From a virus: 27,529 nt of DNA. Both the position numbers and the translations under genes were made by a program. Where the stretch lies: IMG/VR virus record IMGVR_UViG_3300033571_006362, positions 1-27,529 of that record, one strand, 5' to 3'. Below are positions 3,845 through 25,382 of the stretch, piece by piece. The notes below the pieces were generated by a model that saw only the letters and a program-made list of their open reading frames with translations, did not search any database and was not told the origin of the DNA. Every line of letters begins with the position of its first letter. The first letter of the stretch is position 1.

Positions 3845-4361
3845 AGTTAAACGCGCTGGCGAAGAAGCCATCGCAACGTACAAGCGTGCCCTGCCCTACG
3901 GCGAGAAGTGGGCCGCTATGGTCGCCATGCAAACGCCTCCCGGCACCAAGGGCACCGACCGTGCGTTTATGGAAGGCCGGATGAACAACCAGCAGCTGGA
4001 CGACATGCCCGTTCGCCAAGCCAAGTACGTAGCCGCAGAAGCCAAGAGTGCCGGTATCAACATCTCTGGCAAGCACTATGTGGGTGGGCTGGCTGACAAG
4101 CGAGGTTGGCGGGATCCCGAAGCGTGGGTGTCCAACAACGATGATGTCCTCAAAGTCGCCCACAAGCGCCGCCTCTCAGTGGCAGGCACGGTGAACTACG
4201 ACCCAGGCCCTGCGGATCCGAAGCGCAAGCTGATCAGCGAGTCGATTGTCAGGGAAGCGGTCGCCAAGGAGAAGAGGCTGAATCCTTCTGCAAAGGTAAG
4301 CGATCTCAGGGAGAAGGTGATTGAGACGCACGCCTATCGGGTAAAGGGGCGAGGCTTATGA
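3828..4361 (+). CDS. Hypothetical protein downstream of portal
   Basis: 177 residues; family not recognised. It is charged and largely helical at both ends (EVKRAGEEAIATYKRAL; ESIVREAVAKEKRL). Its centre is Gly/Trp-containing (KRGWRDPEAWVSNNDDVLKVAHKRR), which reads like a conserved block. It starts inside the last codons of the portal gene (17 nt overlap) and ends in an ATGA overlap with the first fibre gene, so it is translationally coupled on both sides. A scaffold or capsid gene might be expected here, but the protein is far too small for a major capsid protein and lacks the long highly charged helices typical of a scaffold. I therefore leave it without a function. Confidence 0.75.
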   Translation: MEIPVEVKRAGEEAIATYKRALPYGEKWAAMVAMQTPPGTKGTDRAFMEGRMNNQQLDDMPVRQAKYVAAEAKSAGINISGKHYVGGLADKRGWRDPEAWVSNNDDVLKVAHKRRLSVAGTVNYDPGPADPKRKLISESIVREAVAKEKRLNPSAKVSDLREKVIETHAYRVKGRGL

Positions 4362-5203
4362 AGGGCTATAGGCTCGTTCAGTTCCGGCGCGGCACCGCAG
4401 AGGAATGGCGCAACGAAAATCCCATTCTTGCCGCGGGCGAGATGGGCTATGAGCGGGATGTCGCTGTGTCAGTTGGGCCAGACGATGACACTTACGGCTA
4501 CTCCGATGCCGCCACTGGTACTGGGTTAATTAAAATTGGCGACGGGGTCACGCGCTGGACTGATCTTCCTTACCTGTTGACCTCATTGCGTGTGTCCGCG
4601 GTAGCTGGAAGCACAAATCAGACCATCACGCTTTCGGGCGATGCGTCTGGATCCGGTACGACTTCAATTACGGTGAACATTGCGTCCGGCGCGGTGACTA
4701 ACGGGAAGTTGGCAACGGTCAACACGGGCACGCTGAAAGGCAGGGCATCGGCTTCCGCTGGCTCTCCCGAAGACCTCACCCCATCGCAAGCCAAATCTAT
4801 TCTTGCGATTGTCCCTGGTGACATCACGGGCTTTGACACGCAAGTCCGTTCTAACCCGCTTAACCTTCATTCTGCTGCAACCGGCAGCTACAGCATGGGG
4901 GGGTACGGCCTGACGAACGTGGCTAATCCTACCAACGCCCAAGACGTTGCCACCAAAAGTTACTGTGACAATATCTCTACGGCCGTCCCCGCAATCTACG
5001 CTGGGCAAACTACCATAACCACCCTTGGAACCATTGCCACAGGAGTATGGCACGGCACGGCGATAGCAGTTTCCTATGGTGGTTTAGGGCTGACTTCTGC
5101 GGTAACTGGCCTGCTGAAGGGAAACGGCACTACCTACGTCGCCGCCGTTGCGGGCACTGATTATCTGGCACCTGCGTCCGATATCGACGGTGGTTCGTTC
5201 TAG
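4358..5203 (+). CDS. Tail-fibre-like protein with Mtd-type N-terminal domain
   Basis: 281 residues. The N-terminal ~70 residues match the attachment domain found on many phage fibres and on the major tropism determinant: VQFRRGTAEEW, ILAAGEMGYE, then IKIGDGVTRWTDLPYL. This domain normally fixes the fibre to the virion. The rest is a Ser/Thr/Gly/Ala-rich beta repeat region ending in LLKGNGTTYVAAVAGTDYLAP and a short IDGGSF terminus, typical of fibre shafts. No C-type lectin variable domain follows, so it is not a complete Mtd. The start overlaps the previous stop (ATGA). Its likely role is a fibre or fibre adaptor in host attachment. Confidence 0.75.
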   Translation: MKGYRLVQFRRGTAEEWRNENPILAAGEMGYERDVAVSVGPDDDTYGYSDAATGTGLIKIGDGVTRWTDLPYLLTSLRVSAVAGSTNQTITLSGDASGSGTTSITVNIASGAVTNGKLATVNTGTLKGRASASAGSPEDLTPSQAKSILAIVPGDITGFDTQVRSNPLNLHSAATGSYSMGGYGLTNVANPTNAQDVATKSYCDNISTAVPAIYAGQTTITTLGTIATGVWHGTAIAVSYGGLGLTSAVTGLLKGNGTTYVAAVAGTDYLAPASDIDGGSF

Positions 5204-10409: not shown

Positions 10410-10681
10410 TCGTCATAGACAAGTGGACAGGGTTGGTAACCAACGCATCGCCGTACTCCATCCCTGCAGGGTCAACGGTACAGCAGATCAACCTGCAGTG
10501 CTTAGTCCCGGGGAAGCTCACCGTTCGCCCCGGCTTGACCCCTATCACGTTCGCATCAGCAGACTCCACCACCTCTCCGGTTGTGTCTGCTTACCGATAC
10601 CAGAACGGCACGGCTGAGCATCTTGTCTACCAAGACTCGGCCGGTCGGATCTACTCCTCCGTAAAGACAGGCAGCGCCTAA
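10406..10681 (+). CDS. Tail nozzle N-terminal part (split gene)
   Basis: 91 residues. The sequence reads as the beginning of a nozzle protein: KWTGLVTNASPYSIPAGSTV, QQINLQCLVPGKLTVRPGL, then VSAYRYQNGTAEHLVYQDSAGRIYSS, which resembles the first strands of a propeller. It lacks the rest of the domain, which appears to continue in the next gene (FNDLYVFDGMGRGLRWDG at about 97-114 there). The TAA stop overlaps the ATG of that gene by one base, and the frames differ by one. The two chains therefore probably assemble together, or arose by fission of one gene. A sequencing or assembly frameshift could also give this layout, but the clean TAATG junction argues for a real split. Confidence 0.65.
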   Translation: MIVIDKWTGLVTNASPYSIPAGSTVQQINLQCLVPGKLTVRPGLTPITFASADSTTSPVVSAYRYQNGTAEHLVYQDSAGRIYSSVKTGSA

Positions 10682-13266
10682 TGTCCTATCTGGCTCAGCG
10701 ACGGTCTGGCCAAGTCGTCTCCATCTCCCTGACCACTGGAGGATCGGGGTACACAGCCCCACCGTCAGTGAGCTTTTCTGGCGGCGGCGGCAATGGAGCG
10801 GCTGGTGTCGCCCATATGGCTGGCACACAGGTGGAATCGGTAGTTATAACAAATGGTGGAACTGGCTATACATCCGCGCCGACCGTCACTCTCTCTGGCA
10901 ACGCATCCGCTACCGCAAGCGTGTATACAGGGCCGATAGTGCCTGCCTCGTTTGTGCGCTCGCGATTCAACGACCTGTATGTTTTCGATGGCATGGGCCG
11001 CGGTCTTCGGTGGGATGGGGCCGCTGGCACCATGCAGCCCGTTGGCTTGCAGAAGCCGCACAAGGGACCGGCAGTCACTATCGCCAGCACCGCCATGGCG
11101 GGCTATGTGGACGCCGTCAATGTGGTCAGCCCCGGCAATGGCTATTCGGCAGCGCCGACTGTTACGTTCTCGGGAGGAACGCCCACCACGCCCGCAGTGG
11201 CGCGCGCGGAAGCCGCCGGGGGACGAGTAATCGGCATCACGGTATCCGATCCAGGTGCTGGCTATCAGTCTGCGCCATCGGTCACACTGAGCGCCAGCAA
11301 TGCCTCTGGTGCTACCTTCTCTGTCGGCCTGCTAGGTTCGGTGCGTGCGGTCACTATTTCTGCAGGCGGGACCGGCTACACCTCTGCCCCGACTGTTGTG
11401 TTCTCCAGCGCGCAGGGTCTGACCAAAGCGAATGCGACTGTCACCATCTCGGATTCTGGTTCGATCTCTGCTATTGACCTGCTCAGTGGTGGCACGGGAG
11501 CCACGGGTGCCGTGACGGCCTCCCTGTCTGGCGGCGGCGGGACGGGGGCCAGTCTGTCTGTCGGCATGCAGTTTGGCGTCTCGGCCGTGACGGTTGCCAG
11601 CGGTGGCACGGGTTTCCTGACGCCTCCTGCCATCTCGTTTCTCCCTGACCCCACCGACACAACGGCATCTGTGGCCGCCGCTACGGCGGCAGTGTCCGGC
11701 GGCAGCATCACTAAGGTGACCGTGTCCGGCGGCGGGAGCTACGCGCTGCCACCCACGGTCATCCTTGGCGACTACAACGCGACGGCTACGGCGACCATCT
11801 CCAACGTGATGCGCGGTAAGTACAAGTGCGCCATTCGCTACATCGACTCCACGCCAGAGAAGTTTCGCGGGCCGGTCAGTTCATCGATCTCTGAGCTTGT
11901 GGAGGTGGACACGCAAGGCGGGGCATCGTCGCTAACGTGGACGCTATCCCATGCCGGTCTAGATGACCGCGTCTCTGCCGTTGAGCTTTGGCGAACCACC
12001 TCCGACCAGAGCGTCCTCCTGTTCCGCGTGGCCAAGATTCTACGCAGCGCTGGCAACTTTACGGGCACCTACACAGACACCCTAAACGACGACAAGCTAT
12101 CGGATGCCACGCGCGATGGCTACGGTCTGCTCCCCGTGACTCTTCCAAGCGGGCAGTTGAATGCGAGGCGCTTTGGTGTGCCTCCCGCCAACTTCTCTGT
12201 CGCCTGCATGTTCCAAGACCGCTGCTGGCTGGCAGTGGATACCACCGGGGAGAAGCCCAACAGCTTGTACTACTCGGAGGTGGACGAACCCGAATCCGTT
12301 CCGCTGGAGAACGAGATTGTTGTCCAAGAGAATGCTGGCGACTCTGACACCATGGTCGCGCTCATCCCTCTTGGGTCGTTCCTCATCGCGGCCCAGGCTC
12401 GCCATCTCTACAAGCTGACCTATGTGGCCCAGCCGGTGCTTGACGCCAGCATCATGCTGGTGGCGTATCGGGGAGTCCTCAACAGCAGGTGCTGGGACGT
12501 TATGGGTGGCGTGGCGTTTATTGCGGACAGCTATGGAATCTATGTGTTCGATGGCCAGAGCGACCAGCCGATTTCCATGCCCGTCGATAACTATTTCCGC
12601 GACGGCATCATCGACTTCTCCAAGTCCTCCCAGTTCTTTATGCGTGCGGATCTGGCTACGAAGGTGGTGCGCTTCTTCTACTGCAACTCCACTGACTCAA
12701 CACCTTCTCGCGCACTGTGCTATTCCGTTACCACCAAAGCCTGGTGGGAGGAACAGTACGCCATGCGCATGACGGCCTCTGCACCGTACGCGGTGGGCGG
12801 GCAGCAAGGCGTTGCGTACGCCTCATCTGGTTTCCACCGCTTGGCGGGCTATTCAGACAACGGCACTGCGATCCCGTACAGCTTCCGGTCTGGAGATATG
12901 GCGATTGTCAACGAAGAAGGCAGGCAGGCCGTCAGTGTGCTGTACACGCCGACTGCCGGGGATGCCTCGCTCTCCTTGTCCCGGTTCTTCAATGGATCTG
13001 ACACAGCCCGACAGAATGCCGTGGCCAGTGACCGCGGGGACGGCTTTGTCCCGACCTCCCCGGGCGCAGTTTCTGTTCTGAACATGAACCGCACACGCTC
13101 TCCTCTCGGTGACGCGAGTGGCGTAGCGCGGGCAATGTTCTACGGCGGCAACGAAGAGCGTTCCGCTGGTGCCGACCGACATGTCGCGATTGCGTTTGCT
13201 GGCACACAGTCCTCGTCCGCAAATGCGCCCGCGATCCACGCCGTGATTGTGGAGGGCGTTAAGTAG
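10681..13266 (+). CDS. Tail nozzle / tail tubular protein B-like with eight GGxGYT repeats
   Basis: 861 residues. The C-terminal half (about 380-861) looks like a podovirus nozzle: FVACMFQDRCWLA-type strands (here FSVACMFQDRCWLAV), NSLYYSEVDEPESVP, IPLGSFLIAAQARHLYKLTY, GVAFIADSYGIYVFDG, FFYCNSTD and CYSVTTKAWW, which are propeller-type blade strands. The N-terminal ~370 residues hold eight copies of a ~23-residue beta repeat of the form hxxVxVxxGGTGYTxAPTVxxSG, starting near residues 12, 51, 143, 183, 221, 262, 300 and 343. One propeller-like strand pair (about 90-130) sits between copies 2 and 3. Such repeats probably decorate the tail surface. The last codon overlaps the next start. Confidence 0.75.
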   Translation: MSYLAQRRSGQVVSISLTTGGSGYTAPPSVSFSGGGGNGAAGVAHMAGTQVESVVITNGGTGYTSAPTVTLSGNASATASVYTGPIVPASFVRSRFNDLYVFDGMGRGLRWDGAAGTMQPVGLQKPHKGPAVTIASTAMAGYVDAVNVVSPGNGYSAAPTVTFSGGTPTTPAVARAEAAGGRVIGITVSDPGAGYQSAPSVTLSASNASGATFSVGLLGSVRAVTISAGGTGYTSAPTVVFSSAQGLTKANATVTISDSGSISAIDLLSGGTGATGAVTASLSGGGGTGASLSVGMQFGVSAVTVASGGTGFLTPPAISFLPDPTDTTASVAAATAAVSGGSITKVTVSGGGSYALPPTVILGDYNATATATISNVMRGKYKCAIRYIDSTPEKFRGPVSSSISELVEVDTQGGASSLTWTLSHAGLDDRVSAVELWRTTSDQSVLLFRVAKILRSAGNFTGTYTDTLNDDKLSDATRDGYGLLPVTLPSGQLNARRFGVPPANFSVACMFQDRCWLAVDTTGEKPNSLYYSEVDEPESVPLENEIVVQENAGDSDTMVALIPLGSFLIAAQARHLYKLTYVAQPVLDASIMLVAYRGVLNSRCWDVMGGVAFIADSYGIYVFDGQSDQPISMPVDNYFRDGIIDFSKSSQFFMRADLATKVVRFFYCNSTDSTPSRALCYSVTTKAWWEEQYAMRMTASAPYAVGGQQGVAYASSGFHRLAGYSDNGTAIPYSFRSGDMAIVNEEGRQAVSVLYTPTAGDASLSLSRFFNGSDTARQNAVASDRGDGFVPTSPGAVSVLNMNRTRSPLGDASGVARAMFYGGNEERSAGADRHVAIAFAGTQSSSANAPAIHAVIVEGVK

Positions 13267-14753
13267 TGTTCACCCAGAGCATGCCTGCCCTGGCGCAGGC
13301 TTTGTCAGGCGCTCTCCCAGAGGCGGCTCTGCGTCAACTGATGCAGTCTCTAGGAAACTGCCAGCAACCGCTCACGCACCGCGGCACTGTCAACCTTCAG
13401 CCACCTGTCTCCACGGGGGTGGGCGCGCTCGCTCGCCCGGGGACATGGCGTCCATCCGACTACTCGGACCTCCTGCCTACCGCAGGCCAAGGCGGTTACG
13501 TTGATGTTGCGGGCAACACATACAACACCACCAACAACAACAACAACTATGACGGCCATCAGTTCCATTGGCCGATCAACCAAGACTTCGCCTTTAACAA
13601 CTACTTCGGCGGCGAAACATTCAACGTGGCTGGCGACAGCACGTTCGATAACACAAGCACCACCACACTCACCACCTCCAAGCTGAATGTGGACTTCATC
13701 AACGACACCTACGTAGGCGCAGACGGCCGCGACGGCGCTGCCGGGGCGAACGGTTTTAACGGCTTTGATGGCTTTAATGGCTTTAATGGCTTTAATGGAT
13801 TCAACGGCATCAATGGCGTGACGCGCGTGTTTTTCTTCGGCGGCGGCAGGCAGGGCGTGCGTGAAACCAAAGCGTTGATTTCTGAGGTCAAAGTGCAGGG
13901 ATCGGTGGTGGTGCCCACGGTCACTGCCGCCACAGTATCGTCCACGGCGGTAACTGTTGGCACCTCGCAGCGGGAGGTAACTGTCAACGTAGACGGGACT
14001 GTCATTGTGCCGACAGTCAAAAGCGCCAGCGTGAGTGGCATCAGTACCAGCGGATCTGTGACCGTCCCAATCGTCACTGGCGGGACGCTGACAGGGGCGA
14101 CTGCCAGCGGCAACATCTCATACGACACCTACCCAACCGCAACGTGCAGCCCAATCACAGGATCGGTTGCGCTCCCCACTGGAGGTACTTTCTCGGCCAC
14201 GCCCACCGGAATCGCTGCTGCGGCTACCGTGGGCACGCTGACCGGAGTAGTGGCCTATAAATATGCGTCCGGCGGATACTTGGATGCCTCTTGCAATCTT
14301 GTGCTGACCTACGCCAGCACAACGGCAGCTGTGACGATTTCTGGATCACCCGCGGTTACTATCAGTTCGCAGGGGGCCGTGTCCGGTGCAGTCACGCTGA
14401 CGGGTTCTACATCCGCACCCGTCACCATCTCCACCCCAACGATTACTCCGAATAAGTCCTCCTCATCCACCCCCGCCACACTCACGGTCAACGGCGGCAC
14501 GTTCAGTCCAACGACCGGCAGCACCACATCTGCTGTCACAGTCAGCAGCGCGGGGGCCGCAGTCACGTTGACCTACGGGACTACAAGTGTTCCCGTACAG
14601 TCGAATGGGTACTTCTTTATCACAGAGCCGACTGGGGCGGGCACTTTGCAGACGGCCGCCGTTACGATAGCGGCAAGTACGGCTACCAAGCAGTTGATCC
14701 TCAAAGTCAACACGCCCCGCGCTGACTTGATTACGTACTTGAGGCCAAACTAG
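13266..14753 (+). CDS. Collagen-like tail/fibre structural protein
   Basis: 495 residues from a GTG that overlaps the previous TAG stop; GGAGGG about 8 nt upstream supports this start, although an ATG 15 nt further in is possible. Residues 1-60 are helical and may anchor it. A beta region with NNNNNYDGHQFHWP follows. Residues 151-186 are twelve uninterrupted Gly-X-Y triplets, seven of which are nearly identical Gly-Phe-Asn, a collagen-like trimerising segment. The remaining ~300 residues are Thr/Val/Ser-rich beta repeats with recurring GSVVVPTV, GTVIVPTV and GSVTVPIV units, then Ig-like strands, ending ADLITYLRP. It probably forms a trimeric fibre or tail appendage next to the nozzle. I do not know a named family. 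Confidence 0.7.
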   Translation: MFTQSMPALAQALSGALPEAALRQLMQSLGNCQQPLTHRGTVNLQPPVSTGVGALARPGTWRPSDYSDLLPTAGQGGYVDVAGNTYNTTNNNNNYDGHQFHWPINQDFAFNNYFGGETFNVAGDSTFDNTSTTTLTTSKLNVDFINDTYVGADGRDGAAGANGFNGFDGFNGFNGFNGFNGINGVTRVFFFGGGRQGVRETKALISEVKVQGSVVVPTVTAATVSSTAVTVGTSQREVTVNVDGTVIVPTVKSASVSGISTSGSVTVPIVTGGTLTGATASGNISYDTYPTATCSPITGSVALPTGGTFSATPTGIAAAATVGTLTGVVAYKYASGGYLDASCNLVLTYASTTAAVTISGSPAVTISSQGAVSGAVTLTGSTSAPVTISTPTITPNKSSSSTPATLTVNGGTFSPTTGSTTSAVTVSSAGAAVTLTYGTTSVPVQSNGYFFITEPTGAGTLQTAAVTIAASTATKQLILKVNTPRADLITYLRPN

Positions 14754-14755
14754 CC

Positions 14756-15961
14756 ATGACCTGCTCATGCTGTCAGACTGGCCGGTGCTGCAATGGTGCC
14801 ACCTGCACTGCGACGACGACCTCTGGGTGTGCTTCCACTAGCGGCACGTTCACTGCGGGCGCAACTTGCGGGGCAGTGGCGTGCGTAGACCCATCGGCCA
14901 TTAGCGCCTGTTTTGTAACGAACTGGTGCGCGTGTGCATCCGAGGGCAAGGGGTACACAACTACGCCGTATTCAAATTGCAACTGCGTGACTCTGACCGC
15001 AGCAGGATATGCCAACGGCGGATGCTCTGCTTGGAATTGCAAAGTGTGCCATTCTAGTGGCGGATGCGTTGACGGCTGTGCTGCGCCGCGGGAGTGTTGC
15101 GGCGGGACATGCTGCCCGTTATCCCAGCGCTGCGGTGTGGGGTTTGCTTGCGTGAACAAGTGTACGACCGGCACGTTCTGCGCTGGAACGGGGTCGGCCT
15201 ACGCCTGTTGCACATCCGGCCAGAAGTGCTGCGGGGCATCGGGTTGCTTGGCGACATCAACCGCCAGCTTCACCGTCAATGTCGCCGCCAATGCGTGGGT
15301 GGACACGGGCGTGACGCTTGCCGCAGGGGCGAGCGTGGCTATTACGGCCACCGGCACCGTAGAGTGGGCCGGGGACGGTTCAGCGGCCACTCCAAACGGC
15401 GTGCCTGCTGACTCATGCGGCTGTTGCGATGGCGGAAGTGTGACCTCGTCCTTTTGCCACATGGCGCTGATCGGCAGGATCGGCACCAGTGGAACTCCAT
15501 TCTTGGTTGGCTCCAGCTACTCCGGGTCGCCCGGAGCGGGTCTGCTGTACCTTCGCCAGAACGATACGGTTGTCGGAGACAACAGCGGATCCTTTACCGG
15601 GACCATCACCACGGACCCCTGCCCTGGCTACACCCCCGCGGCCGTTGGTGAGCCAATCGTTTACGAAGCCGGGGAGGAACCGCCAAAACCGTTACCGGGG
15701 CCTGGGGCTGCGCTGAAATCCCTCCTTCGCTTGGCCGGAATAGTCGCCTCCCCCAACTGCAGCTGTAACGCCAGGGCCGCACAGATGGATGCTTGGGGCG
15801 AATGGGAGTGTCTGAAACGCCTCCCAGAAATCTGCGGCTGGCTCAAAGAAGAGGCCAAGAAGCGGGAATTGTGGTTTTTCCCACCGGCCGGGGTGGCTTT
15901 GATTCTGGCTGCGATTTCCCTGTCGGCACTGAAACGACCGTTCCGGGGCACTGATAAGTAG
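14756..15961 (+). CDS. Cysteine-rich protein with LecA-like domain and C-terminal membrane segment
   Basis: 401 residues in four parts. Residues 1-164 contain 32 cysteines, many as CC pairs (CCGGTCC, CCTSGQKCCG), suggesting a disulfide-rich or metal-binding stalk. Residues ~171-287 resemble the galactose-binding lectin PA-IL/LecA fold: FTVNVAANAWVDTGV, GASVAITATGTVEW, ALIGRIGTSGTPFLVGS, LYLRQNDTVVGDNSGSF. Residues 335-370 carry CSC, RAAQMDAWG, two more cysteines (352, 360) and WLKEEAKKR, a motif I associate with Planctomycetota. Residues ~374-392 are hydrophobic, a likely membrane segment, followed by a basic tail. No N-terminal signal peptide is visible. A receptor- or glycan-binding virion protein is the best guess. 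It starts 2 nt after the previous stop. Confidence 0.7.
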   Translation: MTCSCCQTGRCCNGATCTATTTSGCASTSGTFTAGATCGAVACVDPSAISACFVTNWCACASEGKGYTTTPYSNCNCVTLTAAGYANGGCSAWNCKVCHSSGGCVDGCAAPRECCGGTCCPLSQRCGVGFACVNKCTTGTFCAGTGSAYACCTSGQKCCGASGCLATSTASFTVNVAANAWVDTGVTLAAGASVAITATGTVEWAGDGSAATPNGVPADSCGCCDGGSVTSSFCHMALIGRIGTSGTPFLVGSSYSGSPGAGLLYLRQNDTVVGDNSGSFTGTITTDPCPGYTPAAVGEPIVYEAGEEPPKPLPGPGAALKSLLRLAGIVASPNCSCNARAAQMDAWGEWECLKRLPEICGWLKEEAKKRELWFFPPAGVALILAAISLSALKRPFRGTDK

Positions 15962-15970
15962 GAGACTTTC

Positions 15971-17164
15971 ATGGCATTTAACGGTTCCATCATCGCCCCT
16001 TGGGGTGCCAACACGGCCAAGGAATACGCCACGGCGGTTGGCTCGCAGATCGCCGCCGCCCCTGCCCAGTTCGGCCAGACGCTGGGTCAGATGTACGACT
16101 CCTACAACAAGGGCTATGGCAGCTACAACCAGGCGTTGCAGGGGCTTGGGAATAGCTACGCGCAGAACTACGCCGCTCTGGCTAGCGGGACTGCCGGTGT
16201 CGCCAACGCTCTTGGCAATACGTGGAACAACGCCCAAGCCAACAACCAGGCCGCGTCCGCTGCCGCGGCTGCGCAACAGGCTGCGATATCCAATCTCGGC
16301 ACAGCCGCCATGCAGAACTACGGCAACGTGGCTGGGCAAGGAATGCAGGCATGGGCTGCGAACCAGAACGGCTACCAGAAGTCGCTGGCCGATATGAATG
16401 TCGGCAACCAGAACGCCGTCAGCCAGTTGGGTATTGGTCGGTACAACGCTTTGGCTGGGCTGGGCAAGTCTGGTGCTGCGATGCAGGTCGGACGCGATGT
16501 CTCGGCTGCGCTTCCTGGGCTGGCCGGTAATGCCTCCGGTGGATCTCCTGCCAGCGGCGGCGAGGGCTTCAGCATGCTGGACGGCTTGCGCAGTGACATC
16601 AATAACGGCGCTGAGCTTTCCACGCTGAACGACAACTACTACTCCGGTCTTGGCTCCCTCAATGCCGACCAAGCCATAGCTCGCAACATGCCGAGAACGA
16701 TGGTGAGCGATGCCTATGGCGCACTGATGGACTTCAACAAGCTGAATCTCGGCGCGTCCAGCAGTGGAATGGATCAGTTCTATAACTTTGCCAGAGAGTC
16801 TCAGGCGAACAACTACCGCCCAGGCCAAGCCATCCCGACCGGCTCGCTCCTTGAGGCGCTTACTGGCGGTTACTCGGACTCTGCGGGTCGGATTGGAACC
16901 GTCCAGAAGGACTTGAACTCCGGCTGGTCGGACAACAAGAACATCTACAACTCGTCCGTAGCTGGCGTGAACAACCTGTTCAACCGCACTATCGGCAACA
17001 CCGGCGCGTTTAACAGCGCGGCGCAGAATCAGCAGGCCGAATATGCAATGCAGGACGCCGCCATGGCCCGCAGCAAGCGGCAGGCTGCCCAGCAAACGCG
17101 AGACATTCTGGCCAAGTTTGGATCGCCAGAAGCCTACGGTCGCGCTCTCCACGGATACGCCTAA
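15971..17164 (+). CDS. Probable internal virion protein, Ala/Asn/Gln-rich
   Basis: 397 residues with a clear ribosome-binding site (AGGAG at 15960-15964). The first ~180 residues are highly enriched in Ala, Asn, Gln, Gly and Tyr (YNKGYGSYNQALQGLGNSY, NNAQANNQAASAAAAAQQAA) and lack the charged hydrophilic character of an enzyme. The C-terminal end is helical and basic (AAMARSKRQAAQQTRDIL). Composition and position after the tail genes resemble small internal core or ejection proteins of podoviruses, which leave the head and line a channel in the cell envelope. No family name is recognised. An alternative is a minor tail protein. The stop overlaps the next ATG by one base. Confidence 0.65.
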   Translation: MAFNGSIIAPWGANTAKEYATAVGSQIAAAPAQFGQTLGQMYDSYNKGYGSYNQALQGLGNSYAQNYAALASGTAGVANALGNTWNNAQANNQAASAAAAAQQAAISNLGTAAMQNYGNVAGQGMQAWAANQNGYQKSLADMNVGNQNAVSQLGIGRYNALAGLGKSGAAMQVGRDVSAALPGLAGNASGGSPASGGEGFSMLDGLRSDINNGAELSTLNDNYYSGLGSLNADQAIARNMPRTMVSDAYGALMDFNKLNLGASSSGMDQFYNFARESQANNYRPGQAIPTGSLLEALTGGYSDSAGRIGTVQKDLNSGWSDNKNIYNSSVAGVNNLFNRTIGNTGAFNSAAQNQQAEYAMQDAAMARSKRQAAQQTRDILAKFGSPEAYGRALHGYA

Positions 17165-24000: not shown

Positions 24001-24496
24001 GTTGATCACCAACCGCCAGTTCTTCTCAGGCAGGCAGCTGTCCGATCTGTACTCCATGCTAGAGCAGCCACTGGGTAGCCCCGGGCGCATTCTGGAACAG
24101 GTCGGCTCCAATCTCCCCGGCGGCTCGCGTGTCTTAGGGACGATTCGGCAGATTATGGACGACCGGCTCTCGCCAGCAGAGAAGCTGTCAAAGCTGGCAG
24201 TCAACACCCTGACTGGACTGAAGTTCCAAGATGTTGACCAAGAACGCACCAAGCGGCTCGCTGCCCGGGACATGCTGAACCAACTTCTGGAAACAACCCC
24301 CGGCGTGAAGAGCTACGAAAACATCTCGGTGCCCGACGATGTGATCCGACAGATGCCAGAGGAGCAGCGGCGCATGTACCTCCTCTATAGGATCGTCCAG
24401 AGCGAAGCCGCCAAACGGGCACGGGATAAGAAGAAAGCTGAGTTGGCACTGGACCCCCTCCAGGTTCTAGGGGTTACCCAATCAGTTCTAGGCTAG
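21005..24496 (+). CDS. Very large internal virion / DNA-ejection protein (1163 aa)
   Basis: The start is a TTG immediately after the previous TAG; GGAGGGG (20990-20996) about 8 nt upstream supports it over later ATGs. An early Gly-rich amphipathic region (LAGLGWIMDIPGAVVRGG, about 70-90) could insert in membranes. LLDPTSWLSLGA lies near residue 138. A long helical body follows, and near residue 873 there is IFPFYSYTKGIVPLVADN, a motif I recognise from large podovirus internal and minor virion proteins. The C-terminus is charged and helical. Such proteins are ejected first and form a conduit across the periplasm and inner membrane. No lysozyme or polymerase motif is evident. The last 23 nt overlap the integrase gene tail to tail. 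Confidence 0.7.
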   Translation: MALRSPLFDIYDPYGILQQQAQNGMLPEMDEELDSIGVAPLGPRKPQLSDLMPEEEKSAWLKKLSEMGSSGLAGLGWIMDIPGAVVRGGLSGGIGKALSAITDTTDERVTGRELLRQYGMVGDEDTWGNFTGGLAAEVLLDPTSWLSLGANQILGKGAKTVAGMGAGRAGLLEGADVAARKAKVGIRQYLRENTPQSLIDAAADPKLAMENFRIAAGKNADSLLNDPITRMNRLSVLGYDLGATDLYGKGVGDYVARAADQLGEGAKTAPVIGTAYRWGQKAFNPDVLGFSDYDRQWEARGVVDAARRREVKDRGILTELQFNANEALKDGPVRMGDDEYSRWLRNLAEGQVNSRADFKNFDALDQMFQSGPHKDLADYWDNYRQSVQAEADRLGIPLNEFKSKVGTDFFPRQQSAFDSPQFPKYPDGVEAPNPADKRAYLLASKAAPLSDSPGLGRRDYTDLPGGTDTLNKMSLDGALQESLRGANNQDATRILQEWGERSGFGTPTTAGAPSGDLFEWATDQAQRDKLYDNLAKFVRNIDPQHAKKGVPIFGNHSFNEMATYQMRRGRAASNAEQMLQLLKPQMADQSADLVTGGVNYTAKETAQKLGFDPDTFGPAFMRELGIDNLDTVSFPKKFVDDWSQRVNKGRVTPGAEGPLGLFDDFTASFKTLALLSTARYVRDAYSGAFAAATQGAFNWRDWMAGVSARNGNYAPLLRRLKDAPGYKELDDAEKLRKFMVESGAQGMGTSTVADEMLRGASGTQMRGSYPGAAPPTWSSLGRRVYNPDRRWREALYDFYPFAVRSGSGNRNPLLELGDRAAETTDAGNRLGTYLNQVRKGVSPEEARRISDISQVRYQPDAFTDLERDVLKRIFPFYSYTKGIVPLVADNIINRPAGLQGQSLRAINRGSEPSEEFFTPEYLRQSASIPVPKDLPFVGLSSNPNLQRFLTNIDLPYESLINLFTPGVGNTAFDKLSSSAQKSFLNILGQTNPLFKGPAELITNRQFFSGRQLSDLYSMLEQPLGSPGRILEQVGSNLPGGSRVLGTIRQIMDDRLSPAEKLSKLAVNTLTGLKFQDVDQERTKRLAARDMLNQLLETTPGVKSYENISVPDDVIRQMPEEQRRMYLLYRIVQSEAAKRARDKKKAELALDPLQVLGVTQSVLG

Positions 24497-25289
24497 GCAC
24501 CGCCCGCTTTAGGTCAGACAGAATGACCATATCTAGGTAGTGCCTTTTCATGCCCGGGGTCAAATGACCCAGGTGTCCAGTGGCGTCCATTCCCGCTAAT
24601 TGGGCGTAAGTTGCACTGGCCCTACGCAGGTATTTGCCTGACCCTGTCAGACCTGCGCGCTTGACCAGTGCGCGCATGGCCACTATTATCCGGCTCCTTC
24701 CGACCAGTCCCCCGAAAATCTTCGGGCCGCGACGAGGTAGGGAGCGAATGGATTCAAGGGCATTTGCGTCAAGGACGACGACATGTTGCTGGCGAGTTTT
24801 CTGCAGAACCGTAGCCAAACGATCCCCGCGAAGGGAATCGTAGGTAATGGCCAGCAGATCCCCCAAGCGCAGCCCGCTGCTGTAGCCGACAAGAATCCAT
24901 GCGGGCAGCAGGATTCGGTGCGGGCAGTACAGCGTACCCCCCGGCATCTCAGAGGCCACCGCAAGCAGTGTTCTCATCTCTTCATGGGTCCACGCGCGGA
25001 CCATCGGAAGGGTGTGCTTGACACGGCGGATAGGGCGTGTACAATCGTCCACCACAAGGCCGTCTCGGAGGGCGGCTCGTCGCAGGGTACTGAGCATACG
25101 CCTGTGATTATGAACCGTGGAGGCGGCGAGATGACCGAGAGCATTCGTCAGGTAGGCGTCGATGTTGCTGACGGTCAAGTCGGCCACCCCCCAAGGGAGC
25201 CGCTTGGTCAGCACAATGAGTTGCTCACGGTAACCGGGGCTAGCCCCCGACTGGAGGGCGTAAGCCTCCGCGAACTGTCGCACAGTCAT
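24474..25289 (-). CDS. int: Tyrosine recombinase / phage integrase
   Basis: 271 residues from the ATG at 25289, where MTVRQFAEAY gives a typical integrase beginning. A GTG at 25382 would add 31 residues (catalytic numbers below use that longer form). An N-terminal core-binding helical domain (SNIDAYLTNALGHLAASTV) leads to the catalytic domain: Arg I in YSSGLRLGDLL (R172), a possible beta-hairpin Lys in LQKTRQQH (K195), box II KYLRR (K250 where His is usual, R253), LGHL (H273) and the Tyr nucleophile RHYLD (Y282). It would integrate and excise the phage by site-specific recombination. It runs opposite to the rest of the operons and overlaps the 1163-residue gene by 23 nt. A tRNA-like element upstream is a candidate attachment site. 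Confidence 0.85.
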   Translation of the reverse strand: MTVRQFAEAYALQSGASPGYREQLIVLTKRLPWGVADLTVSNIDAYLTNALGHLAASTVHNHRRMLSTLRRAALRDGLVVDDCTRPIRRVKHTLPMVRAWTHEEMRTLLAVASEMPGGTLYCPHRILLPAWILVGYSSGLRLGDLLAITYDSLRGDRLATVLQKTRQQHVVVLDANALESIRSLPRRGPKIFGGLVGRSRIIVAMRALVKRAGLTGSGKYLRRASATYAQLAGMDATGHLGHLTPGMKRHYLDMVILSDLKRAVPSLELIG

Positions 25290-25331
25290 GGTGGTTTTGG
25301 AGATTGCGTGGAGCGTGTTGAGGGGGGTGAG

Positions 25332-25372
25332 AATACCCCCGCTTTTAGCAATCGCAATACCCCTGCTATACT
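25332..25372. repeat. Two imperfect direct repeats upstream of integrase
   Basis: AATACCCCCGCTTTTAG (25332-25348) and AATACCCCTGCTATACT (25356-25372) share about 12 or 13 of 17 positions, spaced 24 nt apart, roughly two helical turns. They lie just upstream of the integrase ATG. They could be integrase arm-binding sites or an operator. TATACT at 25367-25372 could also serve as a -10 element for + strand transcription, although no good -35 is visible. If the longer GTG start is right, the repeats would be inside the integrase coding region. Confidence 0.35.
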
Positions 25373-25382
25373 GTCGGGCCAC

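Follow-up and report, generated by a model that had tools for sequence, protein, structure and literature searches.

Phages are known to encode a fibre together with a small downstream partner, for example fibre and chaperone, as with T4 gp38 and Tfa. Receptor binding is well known for a few groups of cultured phages, whereas hardly anything is known of it in phages that infect uncultured bacteria. In the lectin LecA (PA-IL), the residues HPDQ contact galactose. EclA has been described as the first case of a LecA domain joined to a further domain; it binds calcium via the side chains of Asp114, Asp121 and Asn122, and its galactose residues are not conserved (PMC11875179). Planctomycete envelopes, finally, have been described as protein that is rich in Cys and stabilized by disulfides (PMC3035269), and they contain the Cys-rich YTV proteins (PMC8567305).

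We analysed an IMG/VR virus record of 27,529 bases, referred to as the window, in which a single gene joins a Cys-rich region, a LecA-like domain, a short module with a CxC motif and a hydrophobic helix. The Cys-rich part and the module are products of adjacent genes, termed A and B, in many other phages, and we refer to the window protein as the A-B protein.

Domains of the A-B protein

The A-B gene (14756–15961, plus strand) encodes 401 residues plus stop, with 41 Cys in total. Its neighbours are co-directional and lie 2–9 nt apart, and other viral contigs encode full-length homologues with about 50–74% identity. In all three regions of the protein dN is well below dS, with some dS values saturated; within the fused family, dN was 0.31–0.58 for the Cys-rich part, 0.18–0.67 for the lectin and 0.04–0.26 for the module. 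Comparison of four homologues codon by codon revealed that 9–16 of the 32 N-terminal Cys codons had changed synonymously while not one Cys was lost. The tight same-strand neighbourhood, the homologues, the excess of dS over dN and the retention of Cys despite synonymous change show the ORF to be a genuine gene that evolves under purifying selection. The whole protein gave no match in Pfam, PHROGs or NCBIfam, nor did its pieces in NCBIfam. In a cultured phage collection neither the A-B protein nor unfused B was matched, and the module had no meaningful match. An AlphaFold2 model computed from 40 aligned viral sequences reached a mean pLDDT of 80.9, with values above 90 for most residues of the lectin and the module helices.

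The Cys-rich region comprises residues 1–164 (14756–15247, plus strand). It starts with MTCSCC, the window's version of the N-terminal Cys cluster of gene A proteins. The count of 32 Cys given in the earlier note proved exact, and the content it had called extreme amounts to about 20%, as against a median of 0.8% in the conserved genes of related loci, so that chance is not the explanation. All 32 Cys are invariant across ten full-length viral homologues. From residue 41 the region is modelled with pLDDT mostly of 76–88, with a dip near 141–150, while residues 1–34 are poorly modelled (mostly below 50). A phmmer search of PDB sequences with the Cys part returned nothing convincing.

Residues 169–289 (15260–15622, plus strand) are predicted to form a LecA/PA-IL-like β-sandwich, as indicated by the model and a weak profile match. 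Comparison of the predicted domain with known folds gave a Z-score of 17.5 for LecA (1.6 Å over 115 residues of the 118-residue chain), 15.4 for PllA and 14.3 for EclA, with the next unrelated entry at 8.2; Foldseek E-values for the three lectins were between 7e-7 and 1e-5. At the sequence level, a profile built from ten viral lectin domains reached PllA (E 0.0027) and EclA (E 0.0057) weakly among PDB sequences. A single lectin domain used as phmmer query against the same sequences found nothing convincing, and neither Pfam nor NCBIfam linked the domain to a curated LecA family. The predicted structure confirms the LecA-like domain proposed in the earlier note, with the fold as the main evidence and the profile as a weak addition.

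In the alignment with EclA, window residues D270, D275 and N276 take the places of the calcium ligands D114, D121 and N122, in a loop that is two residues shorter. These residues are absent from three of the ten homologues (L012, L017 and L039). The position corresponding to HPDQ of LecA is occupied by TPNG, no HPDQ equivalent was seen, and the viral domain seems not to have conserved the galactose site. As galactose residues are not conserved in EclA either, sugar binding by the predicted viral lectin is plausible. Unlike the 32 N-terminal Cys, those within the lectin domain vary between homologues. The domain is followed by a linker rich in Pro, Gly and acidic residues (residues 290–314; 15623–15697, plus strand), for which pLDDT is low around 291–310.

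The CxC module and its distribution

The gene B-type module occupies residues 315–375 (15698–15880, plus strand) with the sequence GPG...SPNCSCNARA..MD.WG...C...EI.GWL.EEA..R and is predicted to be helical. Its consensus, GPGTELKxLLxxxGIxASPNCSCNARAxxMDxWG...C...EIVxWLxEEAxxR, includes the CxC...RAxxMDxWG...WLxxEAxxR motif that had been noticed before, which is conserved in the viral relatives. In most phages the module belongs to a separate protein B of about 120–260 residues, typically some 150, with a changing N-terminus. The N-termini fall into several unrelated modules (e.g. L049:5809-5950), among them RCxQRGYTLxEVxxCIVSxxGDxxTVDxxHPAYP, RPxGYxEDVLS and a zinc-ribbon-like type; as each protein carries one of these, gene B is itself modular. 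The B module was modelled as helical with pLDDT 89, and a fold search gave no PDB match (best Z 3.6), an absence that is no proof of a new fold. None of 39 B or module sequences had a significant match in Pfam or PHROGs, the known tail-fibre chaperone families included, and ten unfused A or B proteins matched nothing in Pfam.

Relatives of the module were found in IMG/VR, a single query giving 27 viral loci and an alignment giving 93. Scanning 84,980 prokaryote species genomes once, with one short and narrow pattern, revealed a single relative, on a contig that was binned in a Planctomycetaceae MAG and that matches an IMG/VR virus contig in size and module. Two sets of Planctomycetota genomes, 294 and 392 in number and a sample of this phylum, were searched by profile and added one convincing copy, in the genome G217. 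In the planctomycete chromosomes covered by the sampled genomes and the one narrow pattern, no module homologue was found outside prophage or viral contigs.

The copy in G217 belongs to a divergent A-B pair (L135:10966-11925, minus strand), in which the module has CNEC in place of CSC. Its B protein, 40% identical over 81 residues, is encoded 9 nt after a 125-residue Cys-rich protein that starts with MCCEVVMVCCCEN. The pair comes after the gene of a head-maturation protease instead of a tail gene, and a DnaB-type helicase also adjoins it; with these two genes alongside, the locus is prophage-like.

The earlier label of a planctomycete-type motif was not borne out, as the genome searches yielded only the viral contig and the prophage-like copy. 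A planctomycete cellular motif is not supported, the module being present in more than 90 IMG/VR contigs and nearly absent from the cellular genomes covered by the sample and the narrow pattern. These viral contigs and the virus- or prophage-like nature of both Planctomycetota cases indicate that the module belongs to phages and is likely to be linked with Planctomycetota, and the phages carrying A and B probably have planctomycete hosts.

The same data bear on the suggestion that the phage captured a host surface gene. The Cys-rich, disulfide-stabilized proteins of planctomycete envelopes (PMC3035269, PMC8567305) and the two Planctomycetota assemblies carrying the module or the cassette would fit such an origin. 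However, the Cys-rich half had no relative in 149 Planctomycetota genomes, a set without positive control, the module is almost missing from cellular genomes, no signal peptide was recognized by eye, and the locus is conserved in many phages. Capture of a host gene found no support here and we regard it as very improbable.

The two-gene cassette A-B

Among phages with a separate B, we found 66 dereplicated cases with a Cys-rich gene A directly upstream. The A proteins have a median of 9.0% Cys, and 55 of the 66 reach at least 5%; among 416 background genes nine reach this level, and eight of these nine are fused or A-type genes in their own right. A and B overlap by an ATGA stop–start in 49 of 66 cases, and the A protein ends with NP[LF]P or N[ST]FP in 27 of 66, compared with one of 416 other genes, although the significance of these counts should not be over-read since the sequences counted are related. 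It is unlikely that the NP[LF]P end merely results from the ATGA overlap: its codons vary, and NPLP is retained in L028 and L044, where the stop is TAA and the overlap is absent. At the N-terminus most A proteins have a CCC or CPCC cluster, commonly as CCC after GKLxxxGxL or as M[APS]CPCC.

A is hypervariable and B is constant. In 101 phage pairs in which the tail protein cl1 is at least 50% identical, B matched in all 101; A was similar over its full length in 10 of these pairs and had no detectable similarity in 70. Variants of the cassette were also observed. Upstream of B, L079:187-5703 and L084:271-5703 have three Cys-rich genes in a row (31–52 Cys each), and in L021:2341-4842 and L022:2341-4842 the A position is taken by an 833-residue protein with a Cys-rich start and autotransporter-like GTGTVRLSGTNTYSGTT repeats at its end. 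In L029–L031 an HNH-like gene precedes B and the Cys-rich A is absent.

The number and spacing of Cys differ greatly among A proteins. This bears on the possibility that the Cys hold zinc or an iron–sulphur cluster in the cytoplasm and stabilize a piece of the tail, with no disulfides formed. Metal binding would agree with the CxC and CCC clusters, the 32 invariant Cys of the fused family and synthesis in a reducing cytoplasm. Yet such variability resembles small disulfide folds rather than a fixed metal site, and the even number of invariant Cys is compatible with full pairing; both points are suggestive only. We consider the metal-binding reading improbable and infer that the Cys of the A-B protein pair as disulfides.

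The window protein has the Cys-rich part, with its N-terminal Cys cluster, before the module in one chain; the ATGA overlap and the NP[LF]P end are missing there because A and B are fused. A description of the cassette was not found in the open-access literature searched, and the A-B pair looks like an undescribed interchangeable attachment system. The earlier note knew of no description of the combination of domains in the window protein. The protein is not an isolated oddity, as its parts are adjacent genes in many phages.

Locus context, origin of the fusion and proposed function

Upstream of the A-B gene are located a gene for a tail nozzle-like virion protein (10681–13266, plus strand), with PHROG virion and connector matches obtained partly through repeats, and one for a collagen-like fibre protein (13266–14753, plus strand), whose stop is 2 nt before the A-B start. 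The first downstream gene (15971–17164, plus strand) is assigned to an internal or ejection protein by position only. Of the context described earlier, the nozzle and fibre genes thus held up, while the ejection proteins have position in their favour and no family match. In related podovirus-like contigs A-B likewise comes after nozzle and fibre; in siphovirus-like contigs it follows the tape measure gene and two or three small genes.

L110 and L111 are podoviral relatives of the window phage that share the nozzle (57% identity for L110), the N-terminal part of the syntenic fibre gene (47%) and several downstream genes. At the position of the window protein they encode an unfused A, with 59–63 Cys and an NPLP end, and B. 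The A protein of L110 showed weak similarity to the window Cys-rich part (E 1e-4, a single comparison). In a tree of the module the fused proteins form one branch (SH-aLRT 97), consistent with one change, in a tree of few columns with many unresolved forks. The last helix (residues 376–396; 15881–15943, plus strand) corresponds in the alignment to the final helix of gene B, which is not hydrophobic. Its best 19-residue hydropathy is 1.58–2.43 in the fused lineage as against 0.43–1.47 in unfused relatives, so the terminal hydrophobic segment reported before is present and limited to the fused lineage. The fused proteins, that of the window included, go back to one fusion of A with B, and their last helix has become hydrophobic.

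Two further genes of the window were recorded. At 4358–5203 a protein with the N-terminal domain of the major tropism determinant is encoded (Mtd_N, Pfam E 2e-9), a family known from diversity-generating retroelements of other phages. At 24474–25382 (minus strand) there is a gene resembling tyrosine recombinases (Pfam Phage_integrase at E 4.5e-5, which falls short of the family cut-off); the window phage may thus be temperate.

The hydrophobic helix could place the fused proteins in a membrane rather than the virion. The cassette might then serve in lysogenic conversion, as a moron that is made in the lysogen or late in infection, is anchored by the helix on the host envelope and blocks superinfection or alters the surface. 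All fused members have the helix, the recombinase-like gene of the window is joined by integrase-cluster genes in 17 related loci, and hypervariability of A is also compatible with surface exclusion. Against this, the gene lies within a same-strand structural run with tight gaps, a signal-peptide-like N-terminus was not seen by eye, unfused B proteins are without a hydrophobic helix, and in virions of two tail types the cassette stands where the tail genes end. We regard a moron as unlikely, though less so than metal binding.

The reading we favour, and think probable, is a virion adhesin, composed of a variable, disulfide-rich and lectin-bearing part and a constant docking module, and fused from the two-gene cassette. 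An adhesin with maturation on the virion or after leaving the cell had been considered before; the place of the gene, the variability and lectin fold of its product and an N-terminus with no obvious signal peptide agree with it. The A-B chain would be synthesized in the cytoplasm and built into the virion near the tail by its conserved B module. The Cys-rich region, oxidized at or after lysis, would become a rigid, disulfide-knit spacer, and the LecA-like domain would then bind a glycan of the host envelope, possibly with Ca2+. Exchange of A would provide a new binding target, whereas B would retain docking. What we infer from the combined evidence is location in the virion, binding of a glycan, and docking by B and through the NP[LF]P tail. 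Counting against this reading are the protease gene ahead of the A-B pair in G217, the HNH-like gene ahead of B in L029–L031, the shortened lectin loop, the loss of the aligned Ca ligands in L012, L017 and L039, and the hydrophobic last helix.

More tentatively, and with less confidence than even odds, we propose a general system: phages of bacteria with Cys-rich walls, probably Planctomycetota, would use a dedicated and swappable adhesin, in which a hypervariable, disulfide-rich A with constant ends is recognized through NP[LF]P by a constant virion-docking B. It would operate across tail types and, in the window, would be fused with a LecA-type lectin. Since planctomycete envelopes are described as Cys-rich and disulfide-stabilized, a phage protein rich in Cys may be well suited to hosts of this kind, which is speculation. 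A constant B beside a hypervariable Cys-rich A provides a handle for finding likely host-recognition genes in many uncultivated phages, and the pair opens a testable route to how virions made in a reducing cytoplasm use Cys-rich proteins.

Compared with known systems, the A-B pair resembles fibre–chaperone pairs in that a large, variable protein has a small coupled gene directly behind it where the tail genes end. It differs from partners of the T4 gp38 and Tfa type in that no Pfam or PHROG family matches B significantly and that B is conserved while A changes and is fused to A in the window. The planctomycete YTV cell-wall proteins are Cys-rich like A, belong to an envelope described as disulfide-stabilized and possibly occur in the same hosts (PMC8567305), but the window protein is phage-encoded, without a recognizable signal peptide, and no sequence relation was found. 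LecA, PllA and EclA share the predicted β-sandwich (Z 14.3–17.5), and D/D/N residues of the window align with the side-chain Ca ligands of EclA, whereas identity to the three lectins is 24–27%, the ligand loop is shorter and the galactose site is apparently lost. Where EclA joins the LecA-type domain to a carbohydrate-binding domain, the window protein joins it to a Cys-rich region and a phage module.
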